Source: Pontederia crassipes (Eukaryota; Streptophyta; Magnoliopsida; Commelinales; Pontederiaceae). Taken from it: a stretch of DNA of 64,000 nt. This document shows, in pieces, positions 24-56,068 of this stretch. The position numbers and the translations under genes were made by a program. The notes under the pieces are model-generated. The model saw only the letters and a program-made list of their open reading frames with translations. It was not told where the DNA came from and made no database searches. The stretch covers positions 14,882,171-14,946,170 of the forward strand of contig CM060194.1 of the NCBI GenBank assembly GCA_030549335.1. Reading direction: 5' to 3'. Each line of letters opens with the position of its first letter. The first letter of the stretch is position 1.

Positions 24-1033
24 GTGGATGAGCTCTCGGATGAATGTGAGTATGCCCGTATCTGTGTTGACCTTGATCGTGCGTCGCCTGTGAAGCAGGG
101 CATCTGGGTTCGTCACCTTGATGGCCGGAGATATTTCCAGCGAGTCCAGTATGAAAGCCTGCCCATCCTCTGTTACCGGTGCGGTACCCCTGGTCACCGT
201 CTGCAGTCCTGCCCGTCGCTGCATTCGGTGTCGGCAGCGGAACTCACTAAGGGTGTATTGCTTTTCGGACCTTGGCTATAGGCGCCGGCGGCCAGGTTGC
301 CTCACTGGCAGGATGTCGCAGGGCCGCGTCCGCCGCCGCCAACTCGGGTGCGGATTCCCGACCTCAACGGTCCTGGTACGAAGATCCCAGTCGTTCGATC
401 GTCCATTAACAACTCCTTTGCCTCAATCGTGCCGCGGTCAGATCAGCCGGGTGGTACATCCAACGGTCTGGGCGTCTCTGGATCTAGGGCTGATGGGAGC
501 GGCTCAGATATCAATCTGGCTATATCGGACGGTCCGCATCACCCGCCAATATCCACCACCCAGTCTTTATCTTACCCTCGGACTGAGGGCCACGTGGATC
601 AAATCACCGAGGCATCATGTTCATTACCTCCCTCTGTGCCGAGTGGGAGCAAACCCTAGGATCTACCTCATCGTCGGATGCGCCGCCTCGTCTCGCTCTC
701 CCCGAGACTTGGCACTAGATCAGCACCAGGAACTGGTTCAACAAGTGTTGCCACGATTCACCCTGCCGGACCGTCAGGCGTCGACGCCCTCTCCTACCGT
801 CTCGGACGATGAGGGACTTGATGCCGAGCTCATGCCCTTGCGCGTTGGGCCCTCGGCTTCGCTTCGCAAGCGCCGAGCTACAACAGTCAAGCCACCGGCT
901 CCAGACGCAAAGGCGTACAACGGCCAAAAAACCCCCAAAAGGTAAGAAATTTACTGCCTCATCTACAACGGACTTATACCCTTCCGTATCTCTGCAGGTT
1001 GAACCTCCTTGCTCCTCGCCCGGGGCCAAATGA
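24..1033 (+). pseudogene. LINE ORF1 (nucleic-acid-binding protein), C-terminal part with CCHC knuckle
   Basis: The first 85 codons (24-281) match the DUF4283/zf-CCHC_4 type ORF1 of plant LINEs: a segment with RICVDLD, then YESLPILCYRCGTPGHRLQSC-like spacing giving a CX2CX4HX4C zinc knuckle. ORF1 proteins of this family bind the element RNA. The reading then shifts frame around 280-300, and a low-complexity, proline- and serine-rich tail follows. One frame ends with a TGA at 1031-1033 that overlaps the ATG at 1030 used by ORF2. The N-terminal part is outside the window. This is broken, not a host gene. Confidence 0.75.
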
Positions 1034-4000
1034 GGATCATTAGTTGGAATTGTCGCGGGGCGGGTCGTAGCAATGTCCGGGACCGTCTCGGGAAGATGAT
1101 CAAACAACACCGGCCTGATATCCTTGTTCTTCTGGAAACTCACACCAACCAATGCGATTCCGAGAGGGTCATTCGTCGCCTAGGCCGTGTGTGGTCTGGG
1201 CATTTCCTTGTTGGTAGCGGCGCTTCAGGTGGCATACTTGTAGCCTGGCAACATAGTATTACTCAGGTGACACCGCTCCTTACTTCACCTCAAATCTTGC
1301 ATGTTGTCGTTACTCATAACAACTCATCTTTTCTACTCTCTTGTATATACGCGAGTACTCTTCCTCTTATACGTCAAAATTTTTGGAATGATTTATCTAA
1401 TCTTGATATGGCAAATATTCCATGGGCCCTCATTGGCAATCTAAATTCTCTCACTACATCACATGACAAGAAGGGGAGTGCTGTTTTCAAACTTACCAAA
1501 TCAATCCAAGCCCTAAGAAGGCTTATTCATAATCAAGGACTCTGTGATCTCTGCCCGTAGGAATCTAGATTTACACGGTGCAATAATAGATCGGATAGTG
1601 CAAGAATTTTGTGTAGGCTAGACCGTTTGCTCATTAACAGCCTTTGGCTCATATCCTACCCCGATAATAGGTTACAAACCTTAACTCGTTCAGCTTCTGA
1701 CCATTCTCCCCTCCTCCTCAAAACAAATGATCATATCAGAAAGCCTAGATCTTTCAAATACGAATCTTTTTTGTTTGAGTACAATGAACCTAAGGAGATT
1801 ATACGAAGAGAATGGACCAGGACCTCCCTAATCACCAAGACATTGATGATACCTTAAATAACATCAAAGTAAAAACTATTTCTTGGAACAAGGAGGTATT
1901 GGGCAAATTAGAAGATAAGGCTCAGGAAGCCTAGGTGCTTATTGCCATGCTAGAACAGAAAGATGAGAGGATAGGCCTAACTGAACGTGAACTTGCCACA
2001 CTCAGAGCTACATACAATAAGCATCTTGCCCTTCTCAGACAAATAAGCATAAAATGGTGATCCAAATCTAGAGTAAATTGGCTCCAGCATGGGGACAAGA
2101 ACATTAAATTTTTCCATGTATCCACCATCATTAGATCAAAGCATAACCAGATCCAGTCTATCACCTCCTCTGAAGGGCACCTGATCACTAATGAGGAACA
2201 CATCATAGCTCAATTTGTAAATCACTATAAAACCTTATGGGGCCCCGACACCACCTCTCCTAGTATCATCAATTGGCCTCAATTACCAAAGCTCAACCCC
2301 ACCTAGGTGAACCACTTAACTGCCCCCATCTCAAATGATGAGATCAAGAATTCCCTTTGGAGCTTGAGCCTAGGCAAGGCTCTTGGCCCAGATGGGTTCA
2401 CTGTGAAATTTTATAGAAATTATTGGGACATAATTGGCACTGATATTTGTAACCACATTAGGAATGCTCTGAGTGCACATTCCCTTCCCCAGATCTGGTC
2501 TTACACATCACTGGTTTTCATTCCTAAGAATACACATCCCTCTAGAGTTATTGACTACAGACCTATTTCTCTCTGCAATGTTCTCTACAGAATCACCACC
2601 AAGATCCTCACCCAAAGATTAAAACCTACCCTTGCCATCTCATTGATCCTGCACAGTCTGCTTTTATCACATAAAGATCTATCCAAGATAATATTCTATT
2701 GACTCAAGAGCTTGCCCACTCCATCACCTTTAGGTAGGAAAAAATTTCTCCTTCTCAAAGTTGACATGGAGAAGGCTTTTGACAAAGTTTCTTGGACTGC
2801 TGTTGAGCAGATTCTAACTAGAATGAACTTCCCCCCATCTTCATTGTATGGGTGCTCACGTGTATCAAGTCCCCACTTTTCACTTGTAATATAAATGGGG
2901 TGCCTCCCAATCATTTTCTAGTAACAGGGGCATCAGGCAAGGGGATCCTCTCTCCCCTTACCTATTCATCCAAGTCTCACAAGTGTTTTCATCCCTGATG
3001 AATCATCACACCATTAGTGGATCTCTTATCCCTTTCTCTATAAATTCCTTTAGTTTAAGTCATTTGATGTATGCTGATGACCTTATAATTTGCATTGCTG
3101 CAACAAAACATAATTGCAAGGTTCTCAAAACTATTTTTACTGATTATAAGGAATTGACCAATAAGAAAGTAAACTATGACAAATATGAGATCTACTACCC
3201 ACCTAGAATGGCCATTTGCAGAAAGCACATAATTCAGAATATCCCTAATTTCAAATTAGGCTCTTACCCTTTCTCTTACCTAGGAGTTCAAATTTCATAT
3301 AAATATATACCTGCTAGAAACCAAAGACCACTTATGGATAAAATTACAAACAGAATTGCTGGTTAGAAACAATTACTCCTCAATCAGGCTGGGAAAGCCA
3401 CTTTCATTAATTCAGTCATCAACTCTATCCCTGTGCATACCCTGAGTTCCACCTATATGGCTAATGGCATTCTTGAGGCAATCAAAAAGCATAATAGATT
3501 TTTCTTTTGGGACCCAGGTGGGGGTAAGAGGGAAACTTATCTAATTAATTGAGAGACCATTCAATTATCTAAAGTCTGTGGTGGCTTGGGCATTAAGAAC
3601 TTAACCTATATCCATACCTCCTTATTAGCTAAGAGGGCTCTCGATTTGTTAAACAGCAGAAATAAATCTTGGGTCCAATTAGTCACACACAAGTATGGTC
3701 ATGTACATCCCTGACCCCCCTGCACCTCACTGGGTCAATGGCTTGGAGTTGGAGAGTTATCCTTCAGACTTTAGACAAATTTAAGTTAGGACTACAAGTA
3801 CAAATTGGCAATGGTAACAACACTTTTGTCTTCTTTGATCCATGGATCTTTCCCACCCCTCTTGCATGGATGCCTACTTATATAAATGTCAATATGATTT
3901 CTTACTCCATGAAGGTGAATGAGCTCATTCATGACAACTCTTGGAATGTTCAATTACTTACTGACATGTTTGGTCCTGACTTGCTAAATTGTGTTACTAC

Positions 4001-5113
4001 TATTTATTTGCCTATGATGACACTTGGCAGTGGGTTAAGGATACCCATGAGACTCCTAAAGCTAACTCAGTTTACAGATTCATAGTTGATACCTCTTTAC
4101 CACCTACCTTGCCTGGACGACCAACTTGGAATACACTGTGGCAGAACAAAGTTGTATCTAAAGTTCATATTTTCCTTTGGAAATTAATGCATAAGAGACT
4201 TCCTACCTCTGATGTTATCTTGCATTTCATTCCCTCATGTAATTCTGCTTATAAATTTTGCGACTATCACTTGGAGACTGTTGAACATCTATTTTTCTCT
4301 TGTCCTTTCTCTTTATCTCTCTGGTCCATTGTCCAATCTGAGCTAAATTTTAACTTTGAACTCTTTAATCAGTGGCATGATGGTGCCTGGCTTGTTGAGG
4401 GCTCCTCTCTGAATTCTAGTGCAAAGTTAAAATTGAGGTCTATTCTGACCTTTTCTTTTTGGGGTATTTGGTCTGTCCGGAATGAAGTCTTCTTATTTCG
4501 TTCCAAGTTGACAATCACTCGGTCGGTTTGGCAGAGAGCTCTATTTAACTATGATGATTGTATCAGAGGTCAGGTTCCTAAGGCACCACACCCCCAAGGC
4601 CCTATGTTGGCCCGGTGGGAGCCCCCTGCTATGGGGTGGAGGAAACTGAATATTGATGGCTCTTTCATTGATAATATGCATCCTAGTGGTCTTGGCTTCA
4701 TCATTCGAGCTCACGACTCTTCTTTCTATGCTGCAGGGGCCATTGCGTGGCGTTCCTACTCGCCTTTGGAGACTGAAGCTCGGGCTATCCTGGCGGGTAT
4801 TCAGCACAACATCCATCATCAGATTACAATGCTGCACATTGAAACAGATTCACAAACTCTTGTCCGCATCTTGAACGGCAGAATGAGACCTCCTAGGACT
4901 ATACATCACATTATTTTAGATATTACTTCATTGCTACTATCTTTTACTCATTGGAGAATTACGCATTGTAATCGCAGAGCTAATACAGTTGCTTGTTACT
5001 TTGCATATTTTGCACGACAATTTAACCGTGACGAATTTTGGAAGGATACCCCTCTTGTGGGGATCCTTCATCTTTTGTATCTCGACAGCACCGGGTGCTT
5101 TATCAATGGTTAA
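1030..5113 (+). pseudogene. LINE ORF2: endonuclease / reverse transcriptase / RNase H, inactivated
   Basis: Start ATG 1030 opens MRIISWNCRGAGR, the APE endonuclease N-terminus; LLETHT and ASDHSPL follow, but the usual GDFN is GNLN (codon 1438-1440), so a catalytic Asp is lost. Reverse transcriptase motifs are spread over three frames: ALGPDGF and YRPISLCN (frame 3, about 2370-2600), KVDMEKAFDKVSW (2759-2800), RQGDPLSPYLF (frame 1, 2935-2970) and YADDL (about 3070). A zf-RVT region lies at about 4120-4330. RNase H at about 4650-5010 keeps the three acidic positions DGS, ETEA and ETDS. In-frame stops that replace expected Trp codons occur at 1558, 2058, 3364 and 3550; frameshifts occur near 1830, 2630, 2890, 3700 and 4000. 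Confidence 0.88.
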
Positions 5114-10655: not shown

Positions 10656-11173
10656 TATTAACTTTCTACCCCCTTTTTGTCCTTCTTGCTTCGGCAGTTC
10701 TCTTTCTGATTCGGTTCTCTTTTGAAGATCCTAACCTGATGTTCTTGTAGTTACAGGTTTCCCTTAGGTGCTAGTTCAGCCTCTAGCAACTTACTGATGC
10801 ATTGATCTGCCTCTGATGAAGCCCCGTGATCATGTTCTGCCTTCAAGGTTAAAATCCAGCCAGATTCAGCCTTCCAGCTGAAAGGTTCTTCTACCATCTG
10901 CCTTCTAGATGATGTTCTGATCTTGATCCTTTGCATTCTTCACTGCTGTCCTTTCCTCTATTCTCTGTTGTGTAGGTGATCTCCAGGTTGCAAGTTCCAG
11001 ATTTTACCTTCCTCTGAGGCCTGCTCCACGTAAGATTCTTTGCTCCTTGTTGTTCTCGGTTCATTACTTGACTTCATCAAGTGAGATCTACTTTGTCAAG
11101 CTCCTGATCTCTGGGAATAAAAGTTCCTGACTTGGGTCTTTGAACAGGTTTACCACCCACCCAACCAATTGTA
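10656..11173. promoter_or_regulatory. Upstream region of the PPR gene
   Basis: Pyrimidine-rich, moderately G+C-rich DNA with several short upstream ATGs, as expected for promoter plus 5' leader. No TATA box in a convincing place and no protein-coding exon were identified. Transcription start is not determinable by eye. Confidence 0.35.
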
Positions 11174-13099
11174 ATGGTTCCCTCCATAGTCCTCTCATCG
11201 GCAAGCCCCCTCCTGCCAAGTTTAAATCCAGACGTCCAACCACTGCGGAGAAAGAACAGAGCCATCTCCTCCTCCTCCCCCAATGGACCAAACCAACTCA
11301 TCCATTTTCTGCAGGGATGCAAGTCCATCCGACAGTTTCCCCAAATCCACGCAGCCATCCTCAAGTCTGGTCATGACCAGCACCCTCGCCTCCTCTTCAA
11401 GGTACTCCGTCTCTGCGCCGCCTTCCAGTCCATGGATTATGCTGCTCAGATCTTTGCCACCATCCACAACCCAGACATCTATCATCTTACCGCGCTCGTA
11501 GGGGGACACATCTCCACTGCTGCCCACAGAGAAGCCATCCGGCTCTACTTCCAGATGATCGGCGAGGTTATTGAGCCTGACCTGATATTGTTGTCTTATG
11601 TTCTGAAAGCCTGTGCTTCTGAATTGGCCCTTGAGGAAGGCAGACAGGTTCACGCTCAAGCACTTAAACTTGGAATCGCTTCTGAGAGGCCCGTCAAGAT
11701 GAGACTAATGGAACAATATGGGAAGTGTGCAGAGTTCGATAATGCGAAGTTGGTATTTGGTGAAATGCCTGAGACAGATGCAGTTGCTGCGACCATTTTG
11801 ATTTCTTGTTATTCTGACCTCGGTTTAGTTGACGAGGCCCAGAGTCTCTTTGTGAGGGTGAAACACAAGGATACTGTGTGTTGGACTGCGATTATTGATG
11901 GATGCGTCAAAAATGGACATGCAAATGTAGCATTGGACCTATTCAGAAGGATGCAGAGAGAAAATGTGCAACCAAACGAGCTTACAATAGTTTGCCTCTT
12001 ATCGGCTTGTTCTCAGTTAGGGGCATTGGAACTTGGAAGATGGGTCCATTCTTATGTGGGCAAGTACAGCATAAGGCTTAATACTTTTGTGGGTTCTGCA
12101 CTCATAGATATGTACTTCAAATGTGGAAGTGAGGAAGAAGCACTCGACGTGTTCAGAAATATGAAAGAGAAGGATGTTGTTTCTTATAATTCAATGATAG
12201 TTGGTCTGGCTATGCATGGAAGAAGCAGTGAGGCAATAAAGTTGTACACAGAAATGATTGACTGTGGTTTTAAGCCAACAAAAATAACTTTTGTTGGTGT
12301 TCTGAATGCTTGCAGTCACAGTGGTCTTGTGGATGTAGGATTCAAGATCTTTAATTCAATGGCTAAAGACTATGATATAAAACCAAGTATCGAACACTAT
12401 GGTTGTATGGTCGATCTTCTTGGGCGTGTTGGGCTTGTGGAGGAGGCATACGATTTTATCAAAGGGATGAAAATTGAACCAGACCATGTCATATGGGCTG
12501 CTTTGCTCAGCGCTTGTAAAATCCATCGCAACCTGATTTTAGGGGAAAAGGTTGCAAAATTTCTGATTGACAGTGAAGTTGCTGACTCTGGAGTCTATGT
12601 TCTTCTGTCAAATGTCTATGCCTCATTTGGAAAATGGGATGCCTCTGTACAAACTAGAGCAAAGATGAGACAGAAAGGATTTCAGAAAGAACCAGGATGT
12701 AGCTCCATTGAGGTGGATAACCAGGTGCATGAGTTTCTGCTAGGGGATATTAGGCATCCTCGAAGAGAAGCAATCTATAAGAAGCTAGAAGAGTTGAATG
12801 ATATCGTGAAGTTGCATGGATATATCCCATCCATGGATGTCGTGTTGCATGATATTGAAGAAGGGGAGAAGGAGTGGGCACTGTCTATCCATAGTGAAAG
12901 GCTGGCCATCTGCTATGGGCTTATTTCAACTAAACCAGGGACTACTATAAGAATAACAAAGAATCTCAGAGTGTGCATTGATTGCCATTCAATGATTAAG
13001 ATAATATCGAAGGTAACCATGAGAAAGATAATAGTGAGGGACAGGAACAGGTTCCACCATTTCCAGGATGGATCATGTTCTTGCGGAGATTACTGGTGA
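11174..13099 (+). CDS. OTP80: Pentatricopeptide repeat protein, E/DYW class, OTP80-like organelle RNA editing factor
   Basis: Intronless, 641 aa, TGA at 13097. The N-terminus is Ser/Arg/Pro-rich with almost no acidic residues, like a plastid transit peptide. PPR repeats run from about residue 50 to 480, for example VCWTAIIDGCVKNG and VVSYNSMIVGLAMHG. The PG box EPGCSSIEVDNQVHEF starts at residue 506. The DYW deaminase domain (about 507-641) has the HSE zinc/catalytic motif (H573, E575), CIDCH (C601, C604), a second zinc site HHF...CSC and the terminal DYW. Proteins of this class bind one or a few cis elements and convert C to U. Motif order and phrases such as VAAT..I.CYS, KDTVCWTA and IEHYGC.VDLLGRVG recall Arabidopsis At5g59200/OTP80, a chloroplast editing factor. 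Family is certain; orthology is probable only. Confidence 0.93.
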   Translation: MVPSIVLSSASPLLPSLNPDVQPLRRKNRAISSSSPNGPNQLIHFLQGCKSIRQFPQIHAAILKSGHDQHPRLLFKVLRLCAAFQSMDYAAQIFATIHNPDIYHLTALVGGHISTAAHREAIRLYFQMIGEVIEPDLILLSYVLKACASELALEEGRQVHAQALKLGIASERPVKMRLMEQYGKCAEFDNAKLVFGEMPETDAVAATILISCYSDLGLVDEAQSLFVRVKHKDTVCWTAIIDGCVKNGHANVALDLFRRMQRENVQPNELTIVCLLSACSQLGALELGRWVHSYVGKYSIRLNTFVGSALIDMYFKCGSEEEALDVFRNMKEKDVVSYNSMIVGLAMHGRSSEAIKLYTEMIDCGFKPTKITFVGVLNACSHSGLVDVGFKIFNSMAKDYDIKPSIEHYGCMVDLLGRVGLVEEAYDFIKGMKIEPDHVIWAALLSACKIHRNLILGEKVAKFLIDSEVADSGVYVLLSNVYASFGKWDASVQTRAKMRQKGFQKEPGCSSIEVDNQVHEFLLGDIRHPRREAIYKKLEELNDIVKLHGYIPSMDVVLHDIEEGEKEWALSIHSERLAICYGLISTKPGTTIRITKNLRVCIDCHSMIKIISKVTMRKIIVRDRNRFHHFQDGSCSCGDYW

Positions 13100-32506: not shown

Positions 32507-34613
32507 TTATGAAGAATTATAGGCATAGGAGACATCCGTTTCATCGTCATCTTTCATATATGGTAATATGGATTTCTTACCTCGTGTTCGAGTATCTGCA
32601 TCAAACCAATCTTTTAGTAATATACAAATCTCCATTGACTTAGAGCTCATTGTATTTCTTCTCTCGTTCAAAATCCTAGAATCTACAGAAAAACATTGTT
32701 CTGAAGTCATTGTAGACATCATAACAATTAAAAGATCTCGAGCTAAGACGGAGAGAATTGGATACGTACGACCATTTAATCTCCACCAAGTCAAGACATC
32801 AATTTCACTATCACATTCATTTGGACGTAATAAGTAATCTTGCAGTTCATTATACAAAAAGGCAGCTGAATTGGATAAACCTTCATCCGAGCCTCTTGAT
32901 GTGCCCCTTCTAATAGAAGACGTGAATCTAAAAAATGATCTATTATTGAAAGGTCTGGGTGCTACTGATGGACGTGATGAAGATGCTTGCTCTCTACGTA
33001 CACCAAATTTTGCTTCATATAAATATTATATAAATTATTTATTATTATTTCATAATTATAATATGGATTAATAAAATTGTCAGTTTACAATTCTGGATGA
33101 CTTCTTATATATTGTTCGAGAAAATAATTCTCAATTTCTCCCGTGTACCATTTAGGATCGGATCCCTTAAATCTAGGATCCATCATCATTGTTAAAATTT
33201 CTATGAGAGGTAAATTATTCTAATATTCTAAAAATTTTGATTCCACCAAATAAATTATTTCAAAAAATTAATTTTATAATTCATGTTTTTCATTAAATGA
33301 ACTTGTCATTTCATGAAGTTGATTAATTATTAAATTTGAGGTAGGGGAATAAATGGCAGATAACTCTAAAGTAACATTATAAAAAACTTGTAACAATTTC
33401 ATAACTGCGTTAGCAACATCCCACTTTGAATCACTAATTCGAGCTGTTGGACATTGCATCACAGCTAAAATATAATTATCGAGTGCATGTCAAAATAGAA
33501 TACATAATTTAATCATGTCATAAGTACTATTCCATATTGTAGACACATCAATGTTTAATTTTTTATAAGGAATATTATAACGATGATAAATTTCTTTAAA
33601 TATTTGTCTCCTAAGTATCACGTTGGCAATTTGCAAATCATTATGAGGATGTTCAATTTTTTTAAATGCAATAATTCTTTTTTGCATTACCCAATTTGTA
33701 TCAATCTAATGCACTGTAACAAATAAGAAACCATCACCATTTACAAAAGTCCATATATCACTAGTCAAACTATACATGAATTTAGAATCTAAAAAATAAT
33801 TATTTTTTTATTTTTCTTCTTGATATAATTTAATCGAAATTTTTTTGACAGTTTCTCTACTAACATTTCTAAAGACACCTTGTACATAATTTTGTTGATA
33901 ATATAAAAAAATTTCATCTTTAACAAATATGTAAGGTATTTCTACATGTATAACATATCTTGTTAAACCTGCACGCATATTTTCTTCATAAGCAAATAAA
34001 GAACTCTCGACGGTACCATGATCGGGTACAACTAGTTGAGTTTGTTGCAATAATTTACCCACTAAAAACTATTCCCTAATCATTATAGGATGCGATTCTA
34101 AATGCTATTTTAAACTACCTGTGCTCGAAGAAGAGGCGACAACATAACTAGCCTTGCAAATTTTACAAATAGCTTTATCTTTTTTGGATTATTTTTATCT
34201 ATATTTTTTTTTTCAAAATAATTATAAACTTCACTAGTTAACTTTGGTGTTCTTCTTTTTTTAACTATTATCTCACCTTGCGTGGGAGCATCTGAGCTTG
34301 ACGAACCTGTGGCTGTGGGTGTCGCAATTGCAGTTGCACAATTTCCTTCGGAACCTGTAGAACTTGAAGCAATATTAAGATTAGGAATGACATGAAGATT
34401 AACATATGTAATTGGAGTAATTATACAGTTAGTTGATGGCACCATAGTTTCCATATAACTCGACGAAACTCCACTTAGTTGTGCTGATAAAAAATTAGAA
34501 TCACCACTACTATTAGTATTATATGGTGTACCATATGGATATGTAGGTAGAGGTCCATAAGGTGAATAAGCAGCAAAATCACCATATAGACGAAAGGGAT
34601 CTCGCGAGTCCAT
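32507..34613 (-). pseudogene. hAT transposase (BED finger, RICESLEEPER-like), broken
   Basis: Start ATG 34613. Residues about 130-165 are the BED-type zinc finger: RRTPKLTSEVYNYFEKKNID, then CKICKAS and HLESH after a frameshift near 34190 and a stop. Further segments in order are EENMRAGLTRYV (about 33960), LYSLTSD.W and QKRIIAF (33680-33780), CPTARISDSKWDVANAVMKLL (about 33400-33460), and the C-terminal dimerisation domain with DVLTWWRLNGRTYPILSVLA and SEQCFSVDSRILNERRN (about 32620-32800). Many stops and shifts. It would have catalysed cut-and-paste transposition of this element and its deletion relative. Confidence 0.85.
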
Positions 34614-34841: not shown

Positions 34842-35733
34842 GTGGAGGAATGCCTTGGACACGGCCCCCGTTAGTTTAACACGGTCCGTGTTGCACCATT
34901 CGATCGCATCCGTGACTTTGCGGCTCGTATTGTCAAATCATGAATCTCGTTTTAAAATGGGAAAAATGGGTTGTGCTTGATCAGTGCGATCATGTTGAAG
35001 TTTCAAATGACCACGCAGGCCGTTGTCATCTTCTAAATGCGGACCGTGTTAGAGTCCACTCGATCCATGTTAATTTCAGATACATCATCTGACGCGTCTT
35101 GTCATTGGTGCACGGACTATGCTAGTATTGCATGGTCCGTGTTTGTGCGTTGAAAAAATAACTCGTGCCAAAATGAATCGTGTCGTGCTGGGTCCGTGTT
35201 CACCGTCCCGGACTGTGTCGTGCCAATAGTGTGAATGGCCGACCTGGCACGGAATGGCACGACACGACTCATTTTTTCGTGCGTGGGCCGTGTCCGTGTC
35301 GGCACGACTTTTGGGCGGGCCGTGCAACCTGTCCAAAACTTCATCTCTAGTCAGGTGTATATCGGAGGCAGAAAGTTTTGGTTCACTAGAATCTTATGTA
35401 GTGTGATGATGATGATGATGATGGTAAAATTATTATTATTTGTTTAAATATTAATTGTAGAATAATCAATTTTCTAGATGATTGCCAATGAAAATCTTCA
35501 TTTAGATTATTGACTTCTAGAAGATTTTATTTAGGCAATATACAGTGATGGCAAGATCATGATATATTTTTATAGTAATTTTTAGTTCCACTTTTTGTAG
35601 ATAAAACAAGTATTTAATGGGGGTCATACGCCATATAAAGCGTATGACCCCCCATACGTATGGTGCCCGCCATCCGATCTAATCGGACGATGGGCAATAG
35701 AGACTGAATGGAGAAGGTCGACGACGAAAGGAG

Positions 35734-36006
35734 CTCATAGTGGAGGAGCGCAACCTCCTCTCCGTCGCCTACAAGAACGTGATCAGCGCCCACCGTGCCT
35801 CCTGATGCATCATCTCCTCCATCAAGCAGAAGGAAGAGGCTCGCGGCAACGCAGACCACGTCATCACTATCCGTACCTACCGATCCCGGATCGAGTCCGA
35901 GCTCACCTCCATCTGCAAGGGAATCCTCCGCCTTGTCCCGACCGTAGTTACTCCAGATTCCAAGGTCTTCTACCTCAAGATGAAGTGCGACTACCACTGG
36001 CACCTC
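35734..36006 (+). pseudogene. 14-3-3 protein gene fragment
   Basis: The open frame reads VEERNLLSVAYKNVISAHRAS, stop, [19 protein letters not shown], then [19 protein letters not shown] and [17 protein letters not shown]. These are the most conserved helices 2-5 of 14-3-3 proteins, phosphopeptide-binding dimers. The stop (TGA 35803-35805) replaces the invariant Trp of RASWR, and the next Arg is Cys. Several residues expected between GIL.L and the [12 protein letters not shown] motif are missing. The N-terminus and the C-terminal half are absent. Captured inside a transposon-like element. Confidence 0.87.
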
Positions 36007-36140
36007 ATAGAGGTAGATGTTGACGTTCGCCATGCCGTAGGCGGTGGCGCGGTAGAGCCATCTCTTGAGCTTGTCGTTGTACCGGCGATCGAGGGTGATT
36101 GTGAGAGCGTCGAGGCGGCGGCCTCCGGACGATCCCGATC
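36005..36140 (-). pseudogene. Unidentified gene fragment, antisense to the 14-3-3 piece
   Basis: The minus strand reads [20 protein letters not shown] and then [17 protein letters not shown] in one G+C-rich frame. The composition looks like real protein but I do not recognise the family. The junction with the 14-3-3 piece is at about 36006. DNA further right (36140-36300) is also G+C-rich and open on the minus strand in a different frame and may belong to the same or another captured gene. Confidence 0.4.
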
Positions 36141-36416
36141 TCCTTCCACGAGGCGAAGAAGGCGACCATTCCAGTGAGTTTTCTTCCTCGATCCAGCGAT
36201 GTGATGATGGGTAGGTTGGTGGCGCCGAAGAAGGTGCGGGTGGAGTACATCAGCGCTGATGGCGGAGGAGGAGAGGGGGACGGAGCATGGTTCATATGGT
36301 TTTCATCGAATATGGCTTTTCACAAAATTCTATATGTATCTATGAGATCGAGCGCGGGAGCTTGCACTTCTCCAGTGGCTCGACCACATGACTGAAAGGG
36401 GGTCGCAGTGCCATAG

Positions 36417-36488
36417 TCGACCTCCATCTACCTTGTCTTCGAGTACATGCATCACGACCTCGCTGAACTCCTTGCTGCCAACCCCCAG
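36417..36488 (+). pseudogene. CDK-like protein kinase fragment (hinge region)
   Basis: The plus strand reads SIYLVFEYMHHDLAELLAANP, which matches kinase subdomain V of plant CDKC-like Ser/Thr kinases (consensus YLVFEYM.HDLAGL). Only about 24 codons are recognisable; flanking sequence is open in places but without motifs. Third host-gene scrap in the element at 35614-36594. Confidence 0.65.
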
Positions 36489-36594
36489 CGTTGTCTTCAA
36501 GCGCGCACAAATGACATCCATCTGACTAGATTGGACGACCCAAATGCACGCGTATGATGGTTATATGCATTCCATGCGTATGATACTCATTAAT

Positions 36595-36999
36595 CCCATT
36601 AACTAATATAAAATAGTAAAATTTGCACGCATGGATCAAAGGAAGCTTGTAATAATAAAAGTGTGGAAATATATATACTCTTATTTCCAGAAACACACAC
36701 TTAAATTCAATACATAGTTTTCAATATAAAAGTAAAACGCGTACCATAATGGAATTTTGATCCATCATGCATGATTTCAAATGCTAATCAATTTGATAGA
36801 TGTCAAATTAATGTTTACAACATCAGATAATGCAATGGTGTTTATGTTGGGATTTTAATAAAAAAATTGAAAGCTTTATTTATGCTGAACTCGAATATTA
36901 GCAATGTCCTAATTCTATTTTAATGATGTTTCTGGAGTTATCGTTCAAAAATAATTGAGAGGTCCAAGAAATTATTGCTTTAGCTAACATGTCAAGTTG

Positions 37000-54538: not shown

Positions 54539-56068
54539 ATGGCGATTCAAGCGCAGCATCCGTCCTACTATGACTTCTCACCGGATATCCGCAACCAGTA
54601 CGTCCCTCGCACTTCGTTGCCCATATCTCGCTCCTTCGCTTGAGCGCTTCTTTTGGGGGCGCGAACTGCTTTCCTGTTCCCGGGGATTCAGGGGGCTCGG
54701 GATCACAGCGGGAGCGTGTTGCGTCCTTCCGTGCATGTGTCTTATTGGTCTCGAGATGATGGAGGTGTTTATGTGCTCGGGATCACGGCGAGCGCGTGTT
54801 TCTTCTTTTGCGTTTGCCTTTGGCTAAAGCGTTGCTCTTCTTATTGGTCTTGTTCCAGGCCGCGTGCCATTGCCGGGGAAGACATGCATATGCTGAAGCT
54901 GCAGATGCTGCCAGAGCATCAGCGCAGTCTTCTCATTGGGGGGAACGCGTACGGGTTGGACTGCAACAAGAACGCCAATGGCGCCGTGCTGAGTGACCTC
55001 CAGAAGAGCGAGCTCACGTGCAATAAGTCCGGCTCCAGGAAACGCGCCCGGGAAGAGCCGTCCATGGCACTGCCGCGGCCGAACGACGACTGCATCAGCC
55101 GCAAGAACGTCGACAGCCAGTTCTTCCCCGTCGTCTCTTCGCAACCCTTATTGTACCATGCCGCGGTTGCTCCGATGGTGGCCCCATTCAAGCTCGCCGA
55201 TGGCTCCTTTGTTTCCGGCAACGACCCGGCCGTCTCCGTCGTGGGGCTTCAGAGCCGCATGCTTGAGTCCGCCTGCACCTCCACCAGCGGACGGCCGGCT
55301 GTGTCGTCCTCCACGTTGCATGTCGCCGCCGCTCTCCCTCAAGACCTCGTGTCCCATCTCTACCACCAGAACTTGGAAATCGACGCTCTCGTTCGCTTGC
55401 AGGTTAGCAATCGTAGCTCTGTTTCCTGATTCGTTGACACTATTTTTGTTCTGTTCGTGAAACTTAAAAGGCTCTCTCACGATCATGAACAGAGCGAGAG
55501 ACTCCGGTTCGGATTGGAAGAGGCGCGCAAGAGGCACTGCCGGGCGCTTCTGACGACCCTCGAGCAGCAGACGCTTAAGCGGCTCAAAGAGAAAGTAGCA
55601 GAGCTGGAAGCAGCCAACCGCCGTAACGCCGAGCTGGAGGAGAAGCTCCGGCAGCTGGCCACCGAGAACCAGGTCTGGTTTAACGTCGCCAAGAACAACG
55701 AAGCCATCGTGTCCAGCCTCCGATCAAGCCTCGAGCAGGTCCTCCTCCAGAACGCCGACGCCGTCGTCGCACTCTCTCCGGCGAAGGAAGGATTCGGAGA
55801 CAGCGACGGGACCCTCTTCCCGGCCGACGACGCGCAGTCGTGTTGCTTCGAAGGAGACAACGCTACCATCGCCGAGAGGAGGGCGGATGTGAACCCCGAG
55901 GCCGCCCGTCGACGGAAGGCGTGCAAGACGTGCGGCGACCGGGACGTCTGCGTGCTTCTGCTTCCCTGCAGGCACCTGTGTCTGTGCAAGGAGTGCGAAT
56001 CCAAGGTCGACACGTGCCCCATCTGCAAGGCGACGAGGAACGCCTCTCTCCAGGTGGACCTGTCGTGA
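54539..56068 (+). CDS. BOI-related RING E3 ubiquitin-protein ligase (SBP1 family), three exons
   Basis: Exons 54539-54597, 54859-55402 and 55493-56068; introns have GT...AG borders and joining keeps frame, giving 392 aa. The start MAIQAQHPSYYDF resembles BOI-family N-termini. A conserved block EIDALVRLQ/SERLRFGLEEARKRH spans exons 2 and 3, then a coiled coil (about 215-295) with ENQVWFNVAKNNEA and LRSSLEQVLLQ. The C-terminal C3HC4 RING has C345, C348, C360, H362, C366, C369, C376, C379 and ends ASLQVDLS. The family ubiquitinates regulators in stress, pathogen and gibberellin responses (Arabidopsis BOI/BRG proteins; Petunia SBP1). Codons are strongly G/C-ended, unlike the PPR gene. Which BRG member is the ortholog is open. 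Confidence 0.93.

Follow-up and report, generated by a model that had tools for sequence, protein, structure and literature searches.

Does a unit of about one kilobase on chromosome C12 of Pontederia crassipes hold pieces of several host genes as the cargo of a transposon, and to which kind of transposon does it belong? The unit lies in a 64,000-nucleotide stretch (C12:14882171-14946170; hereafter the window, in whose numbering all coordinates without a chromosome or locus are given), which was searched against the whole 1.13-Gb genome. A preliminary description had placed a transposon-like unit with fragments of at least three host genes at 35614 to 36594 and had suggested that it might belong to another gene-capturing superfamily than Mutator. 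Our analysis indicates that this mobile element, which occupies 35610-36597 (about 988 bp), is very probably a non-autonomous Mutator-like transposon (Pack-MULE) with pieces of three genes.

Layout of the element and parents of its captured pieces

A genome-wide search with 35614-36594 returned at least 71 matching pieces, several of which span most of the unit (40 of 284 candidates scored). As had been proposed, the unit is thus a repeat element rather than pieces brought together by chance, although its true ends lie slightly further out, at 35610 and about 36597. Its gene fragments are GC-rich (0.542, against 0.354 and 0.333 in the AT-rich surroundings). Local alignment of 11 copies with candidate parents was used to divide the unit into segments, and nearly all of the 988 bp were assigned to pieces other than a transposase.

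The left end (A; 35610..35707, plus strand) comprises GTATTTAATGGGGG (family form GGATTTAATGGGG) and a subterminal region, and was recognised by comparing the ends of the copies and from genomic matches to the left end of copy L015. At 35619-35652 it contains two perfectly inverted arms of 13 bp (GGGGGTCATACGC / GCGTATGACCCCC) around an 8-nt loop, which could form a hairpin, and similar letters are present in several copies. The captured 14-3-3 coding exon follows on the plus strand (35708..36006); its local alignment begins at 35729, and the start at 35708 was set by eye from the letters of the parent. The parent stretch is C3:6167870-6168196 (L049:2871-3197), with a homologue (L050) on C4, and the genome search matched the piece to the C3 and C4 genes with E values of 2.5e-88 and 1.3e-85. 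In the window the exon has lost 15 bp and acquired one in-frame stop.

The minus-strand fragment that had been left unnamed in the preliminary description is real and can now be recognised as part of an F-box/LRR gene (36006..36123, coding strand minus within the element). It matches C12:34064445 with an E value of 1.3e-23, the parent stretch being C12:34064445-34064598 (L051:2946-3099) in a minus-strand ORF at C12:34063885-34064991. When this piece was searched directly, the eight matches were C12:34064445, the window itself, five other copies of the element and a single weak one on C9. In the nine copies inspected, the 14-3-3 piece meets the F-box piece at the same position, to within one base. 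Next comes segment D (36131..36193, plus strand), whose sequence is common to the inner ends of other MULEs (L054, L055, L056 and L059).

The captured CDK-like kinase exon is also on the plus strand and is split in the window into a first half (36195..36295; parent from C7:32551585 onward, E 7.8e-16) and a second half (36352..36499) that ends at parent base L052:2859. The parent stretch is L052:2586-2860 on C7, with a homologue (L053) on C8. Between the two halves stand about 56 inserted bp (about 36296..36351), which have no match in the other copies compared and are missing from the paired copy L012 on C11. The right end (F; 36500..36597, plus strand), recognised from the copies' ends and from matches to the L010 right end, consists of a subterminal region closed by ...GCGTATGATACTCATTAATCCC.

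A Pfam search of the parent ORFs gave 14-3-3 (PF00244), F-box (PF00646) with LRR models, and Pkinase (PF00069), in agreement with the 14-3-3 and kinase assignments made at the outset. Counting substitutions only, the window copy is 88.8% identical to its 14-3-3 parent, 83.9% to its F-box parent and 85.8% to its kinase parent (148 bp of the kinase piece). Alignment of each fragment to its source, which had been recommended at the outset, led to three likely parents at unlinked loci, on C3 (homologue on C4), C12 and C7 (homologue on C8).

Two long frames in the unit, 35614-36249 (minus strand) and 35806-36177 (plus strand), were scanned with Pfam and gave no transposase match. The former, an open frame of 211 aa, was considered as a coding sequence and rejected: since it has no Pfam match and the 14-3-3 parent itself has a 168-aa antisense frame, its openness is taken to be mechanical.

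Copies, shared insertions and the order of capture

The 14-3-3 piece was found in 14 of the loci examined, on ten chromosomes, or ten sites once four pairs are merged. The F-box and kinase pieces accompany it in 13 of the 14, L021 having no detectable kinase piece; in L013 the F-box piece was seen through the junction and a 76-bp alignment, not by BLAST. Six further loci (L023-L028) have kinase and F sequence without the captured 14-3-3 stretch; short F-box bits are present in four of these, and no segment D was detected in L028. One of the 14-3-3 copies, L019 (C3:28169000-28178500), is interrupted within the kinase piece by about 5 kb of other sequence.

Flanking sequences align for five pairs of copies, namely the window copy (L009) with L012, L010 with L011, L015 with L016, L017 with L019, and L023 with L027, which lie on C12/C11, C7/C8, C13/C14, C4/C3 and C9/C10, respectively. 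The flanks of the window copy and of its C11 counterpart are 89.7% identical over 1264 bp. We read the paired chromosomes as homoeologous, and on that reading the five shared insertions predate the divergence of the pairs. The window copy is an old, decayed relic.

The end of the kinase piece bears on the order in which the cargo was assembled. It falls at parent base 2859/2860 in all 11 of the 14-3-3 copies that could be assessed (nine and L018 by alignment, L014 by eye; L015, L016 and L021 were not assessable), whereas the piece runs on to 2880/2886 in all five assessable copies without 14-3-3 (L023, L024, L025, L026 and L027; L028 was not assessable). The longer end is the parental state. 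A kinase-tail deletion common to the copies with 14-3-3 suggests stepwise capture, and the pattern fits a single lineage that gained 14-3-3 and was also deprived of the end of its kinase piece.

It could be argued instead that all three pieces were assembled first and that 14-3-3 was later lost from some copies, rather than being added to an older kinase/F-box element. A tree of the short kinase piece places L025 and L028, which have no 14-3-3, among the 14-3-3 copies; its support is weak, too weak for proof. Set against the consistent difference in kinase ends, with the parental form confined to assessable copies without 14-3-3, later loss appears somewhat unlikely.

On the reading that we favour, fragments of the F-box gene, the CDK-like kinase gene and, probably later, the 14-3-3 gene were copied from unlinked loci to a position between two MULE ends, presumably through template switching during gap repair, a route taken from the literature. 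The composite then moved as one unit, with transposase probably supplied in trans by FAR1-type MULEs that have one end type in common with it, as the shared sequence suggests. It came to occupy at least ten sites, in several cases earlier than the split of the paired chromosomes, and the 14-3-3 cargo in the window is now decaying without coding constraint under the kind of mutation bias that marks methylated DNA.

Decay of the 14-3-3 piece and possible effects on the parent genes

In-frame stops occur among the aligned codons in 8 of the 14 copies of the 14-3-3 piece. Uncorrected counts of singletons by codon position (31/26/45) lean towards position 3, as coding selection might produce. We therefore counted distinct derived bases per site within matched base classes, dropping columns in which under 8 copies were represented and sites with the parent base in 15% of copies or fewer. 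On this count, non-CpG G/C sites had 44 changes at 70 sites for position 3 versus 41 at 62 for positions 1-2, and CpG sites had 35 changes at 28 sites versus 58 at 52. The raw hint of position thus vanished once base class was matched, coding selection was rejected, and the piece looks to be decaying neutrally. Over all codon positions, changes numbered 93 at 80 CpG sites, 85 at 132 other G/C sites and 20 at 105 A/T sites; being commonest at CpG and rarest at A/T, they follow the distribution that would be expected for methylated, silent DNA.

A family of this kind might nevertheless act on its parents, with transcripts driven from the ends giving rise to antisense or small RNAs that lower the expression of 14-3-3 and perhaps of the kinase. 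The window copy has exact 21-mers in common with the 14-3-3 parents at 49 positions and exact 24-mers at 39, with a longest exact run of 45 nt, and in other copies exact identity to the kinase parent persists over as much as 34 nt (L022) and 29 nt (L011). In principle, small RNAs might thus act on 14-3-3 or, if they arose from other copies, on the kinase, and portions of two reviews describe Pack-MULEs as sources of siRNAs for their donor genes (PMC13317346, PMC12030055). However, the window copy matches neither the kinase nor the F-box parents in any exact 21-mer, exact F-box runs reach no more than 18 nt across the 14 copies, and the decay of the 14-3-3 piece looks neutral. On balance, we judge such regulation improbable.

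A broader account would join capture and regulation in an accreting element: an older F-box/kinase Pack-MULE would have gained 14-3-3 at the boundary of its left end, the 14-3-3-bearing form would have multiplied, and the exact stretches that remain (those of 14-3-3 in the window copy and of the kinase in some others) could feed small RNAs tuning the parents on both chromosome sets. Taken as a whole, this chain of steps is quite improbable.

Ends, superfamily and relatives

Comparison of the ends of the copies gave the inverted repeat as GGATTTAATGGGG at the left and CCCATTAATCC or a similar sequence at the right, in keeping with the 'catacgc' inverted ends noted previously. TTAA, which had been taken as the outer edge, is internal to this repeat; the conserved bases extend beyond it (GGATT... 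/ ...ATCC). No long, near-identical inverted repeat was found in the window copy. Over 82 bp, the left end of L012 shows 74% likeness to an F-type end, that of L055.

The GGATTTAATGGG-type ends are bordered on their outer side by direct repeats of about 9 bp. Nine bases at each boundary were compared, with two bases of slack, in the 19 elements for which both ends were located; L014, L015, L021, L022, L023, L024, L027, the main unit of L028, L061, L063 and L067, with an end missing or not located, were left out. Nine repeats were perfect, five matched at 8/9 and the others at 7, 6, 6, 5 and 4, such that 14 of 19 elements scored at least 8/9, against 12 of 334 mismatched left/right control pairs. 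Merging three chromosome pairs (L009/L012, L010/L011 and L017/L019) left 13 of 16 sites at this level. Scores of at least 8/9 were reached by half of the ten both-ended 14-3-3 copies (the remaining five giving the 7, 6, 6, 5 and 4), by both kinase copies without 14-3-3 and by all seven other elements with related ends; L025 and L060 sit in simple AT repeats, so their high scores mean less. In the window copy and in L012 only six of the nine flanking bases are equal. The probable left duplication in the window (35601..35609, plus strand; identical nine bases adjoin L012) matches the right one (36598..36606, plus strand; from flank comparison) at 6/9, and both are degraded.

A length of about 9 bp is in the Mutator-like range: MULE target duplications are given as 9-11 bp in an excerpt of PMC3310237 and as 8-11 bp in one of PMC6446971. 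TTAA does stand at both edges of the 35614-36594 unit in the window copy, as a piggyBac-like, PIF/Harbinger or Helitron element that captures genes might have it; with conserved bases continuing outside TTAA, direct repeats of 8-9/9 beyond them in 14 of 19 elements and MULE (PF10551) and FAR1 domains in related long elements, the suggestion of another superfamily is scarcely credible. Taken singly, piggyBac was rejected because its TTAA target duplication at the outer edge is absent, TTAA lying inside the conserved ends; PIF/Harbinger because the repeats are of about 9 bp and not a 3-bp TTA/TAA; hAT because perfect 9-base repeats flank 9 of 19 elements in place of an 8-bp duplication (scoring was at nine bases only); and Helitron because the family has both target duplications and inverted repeats.

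Four relatives, L054, L055, L056 and L059, combine segment D with an F-type end. L056 (C2) has an ORF with a MULE transposase domain (PF10551, E 3.6e-29) and FAR1 domains, and the ORFs of L059 (C16) are broken but show FAR1, MULE and SWIM domains; the FAR1 ORF of the latter has at least 151 matches genome-wide (150 of 3145 candidates scored). L056 and L059 share with the element both segment D and the right-end type. The end is only about 71-78% alike over about 90-115 bp, so the transposase found is that of a relative and not of a proven partner. L068 (C11:22626050-22631450) was considered as an autonomous partner: it spans 5.2 kb, with 100-bp inverted ends of the right-end type that are 89% identical and a perfect 9-base flanking repeat, yet no transposase was recognised by eye in its frames.

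The ends also enclose other contents, as the preliminary description had proposed to ask. The L015 left end has at least 40 matches (40 of 99 candidates scored), of which 12 are in 14-3-3 copies, one is in L023 and 27 lie elsewhere, outside the cargo-bearing copies examined. Eight of these 27 were sampled and hold other, GC-rich contents (0.56-0.63 between approximate ends). L060, L061 and L062 form a separate family among the loci with this left end. The L010 right end has at least 41 matches (40 of 42 candidates scored). L028 holds a second, short element (L028:3698-4436), each of whose ends is of the left-end type and which is flanked by a perfect 9-base repeat (TAGTTTTAA).

Rice Pack-MULEs, reportedly treated by Jiang et al. 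in 2004, invite comparison with this family. From what is set out in parts of PMC12030055 and PMC13317346, the two have in common non-autonomous MULE ends, a target duplication of about 9 bp, multiple copies, GC-rich gene fragments in AT-rich surroundings and the presence of several loci in one element; about one fifth of rice Pack-MULEs combine fragments of several loci, according to a passage in PMC12030055. The multi-locus Pack-MULE is thus already known as a kind. The present family differs from the rice elements in its cargo combination (14-3-3, F-box and CDK-like kinase), in its end sequence and in having insertions common to paired chromosomes, and its inverted repeats seem to fall short of the 100-500 bp stated as typical in a section of PMC3310237 and to resemble each other less. 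In literature searches on 14-3-3 and on Pack-MULEs of finger millet, the two ways in which this particular family was sought, none of the 14-3-3 papers listed used the word Pack-MULE, and the finger-millet papers, judged by title and the opening of the abstract, did not deal with an element of this sort.

The Hop/Jittery group of MULEs combines an N-terminal FAR1 with a C-terminal SWIM or CCHC domain. By domain content only, L059 (FAR1, MULE, SWIM) and L056 (FAR1, MULE), with which the element has its right-end type and segment D in common, resemble the plant Jittery subgroup as outlined in part of PMC6446971. Unlike that group, the element itself shows no transposase, and the same excerpt gives the subgroup's duplications as 'not indicated/8 bp', not 9. 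Pack-TYPE elements (Pack-CACTA, hAT and PIF) likewise hold captured coding DNA between inverted repeats, as an extract of PMC8903248 has it, with duplications of 5 nt (CACTA), 8 nt (hAT) and TTA/TAA (most PIF), in contrast to the duplication of about 9 bp and the different ends seen here.

The family represents a well-resolved multi-gene capture, with likely parents for all three pieces, mapped breakpoints and intermediate-like copies. Its insertions can be ordered relative to the divergence of the paired chromosomes, the suggestion of a new gene-capturing superfamily is corrected, and the family could serve as a test case for stepwise capture.

Elsewhere in the window, a hAT-family transposase C-terminal dimerisation domain (PF05699) at 32507-33025 (minus strand) apparently belongs to a hAT element or a hAT-derived gene. 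A LINE-like element lies in pieces at 1003-5113 (plus strand), with a reverse transcriptase (PF00078) in the 2890-3366 frame and neighbouring frames that are, by eye only, endonuclease- and RNase H-like. Two further plus-strand frames encode a PPR protein of the DYW class (11144-13099, open for 651 aa) and a RING-finger (C3HC4) protein (55430-56068).
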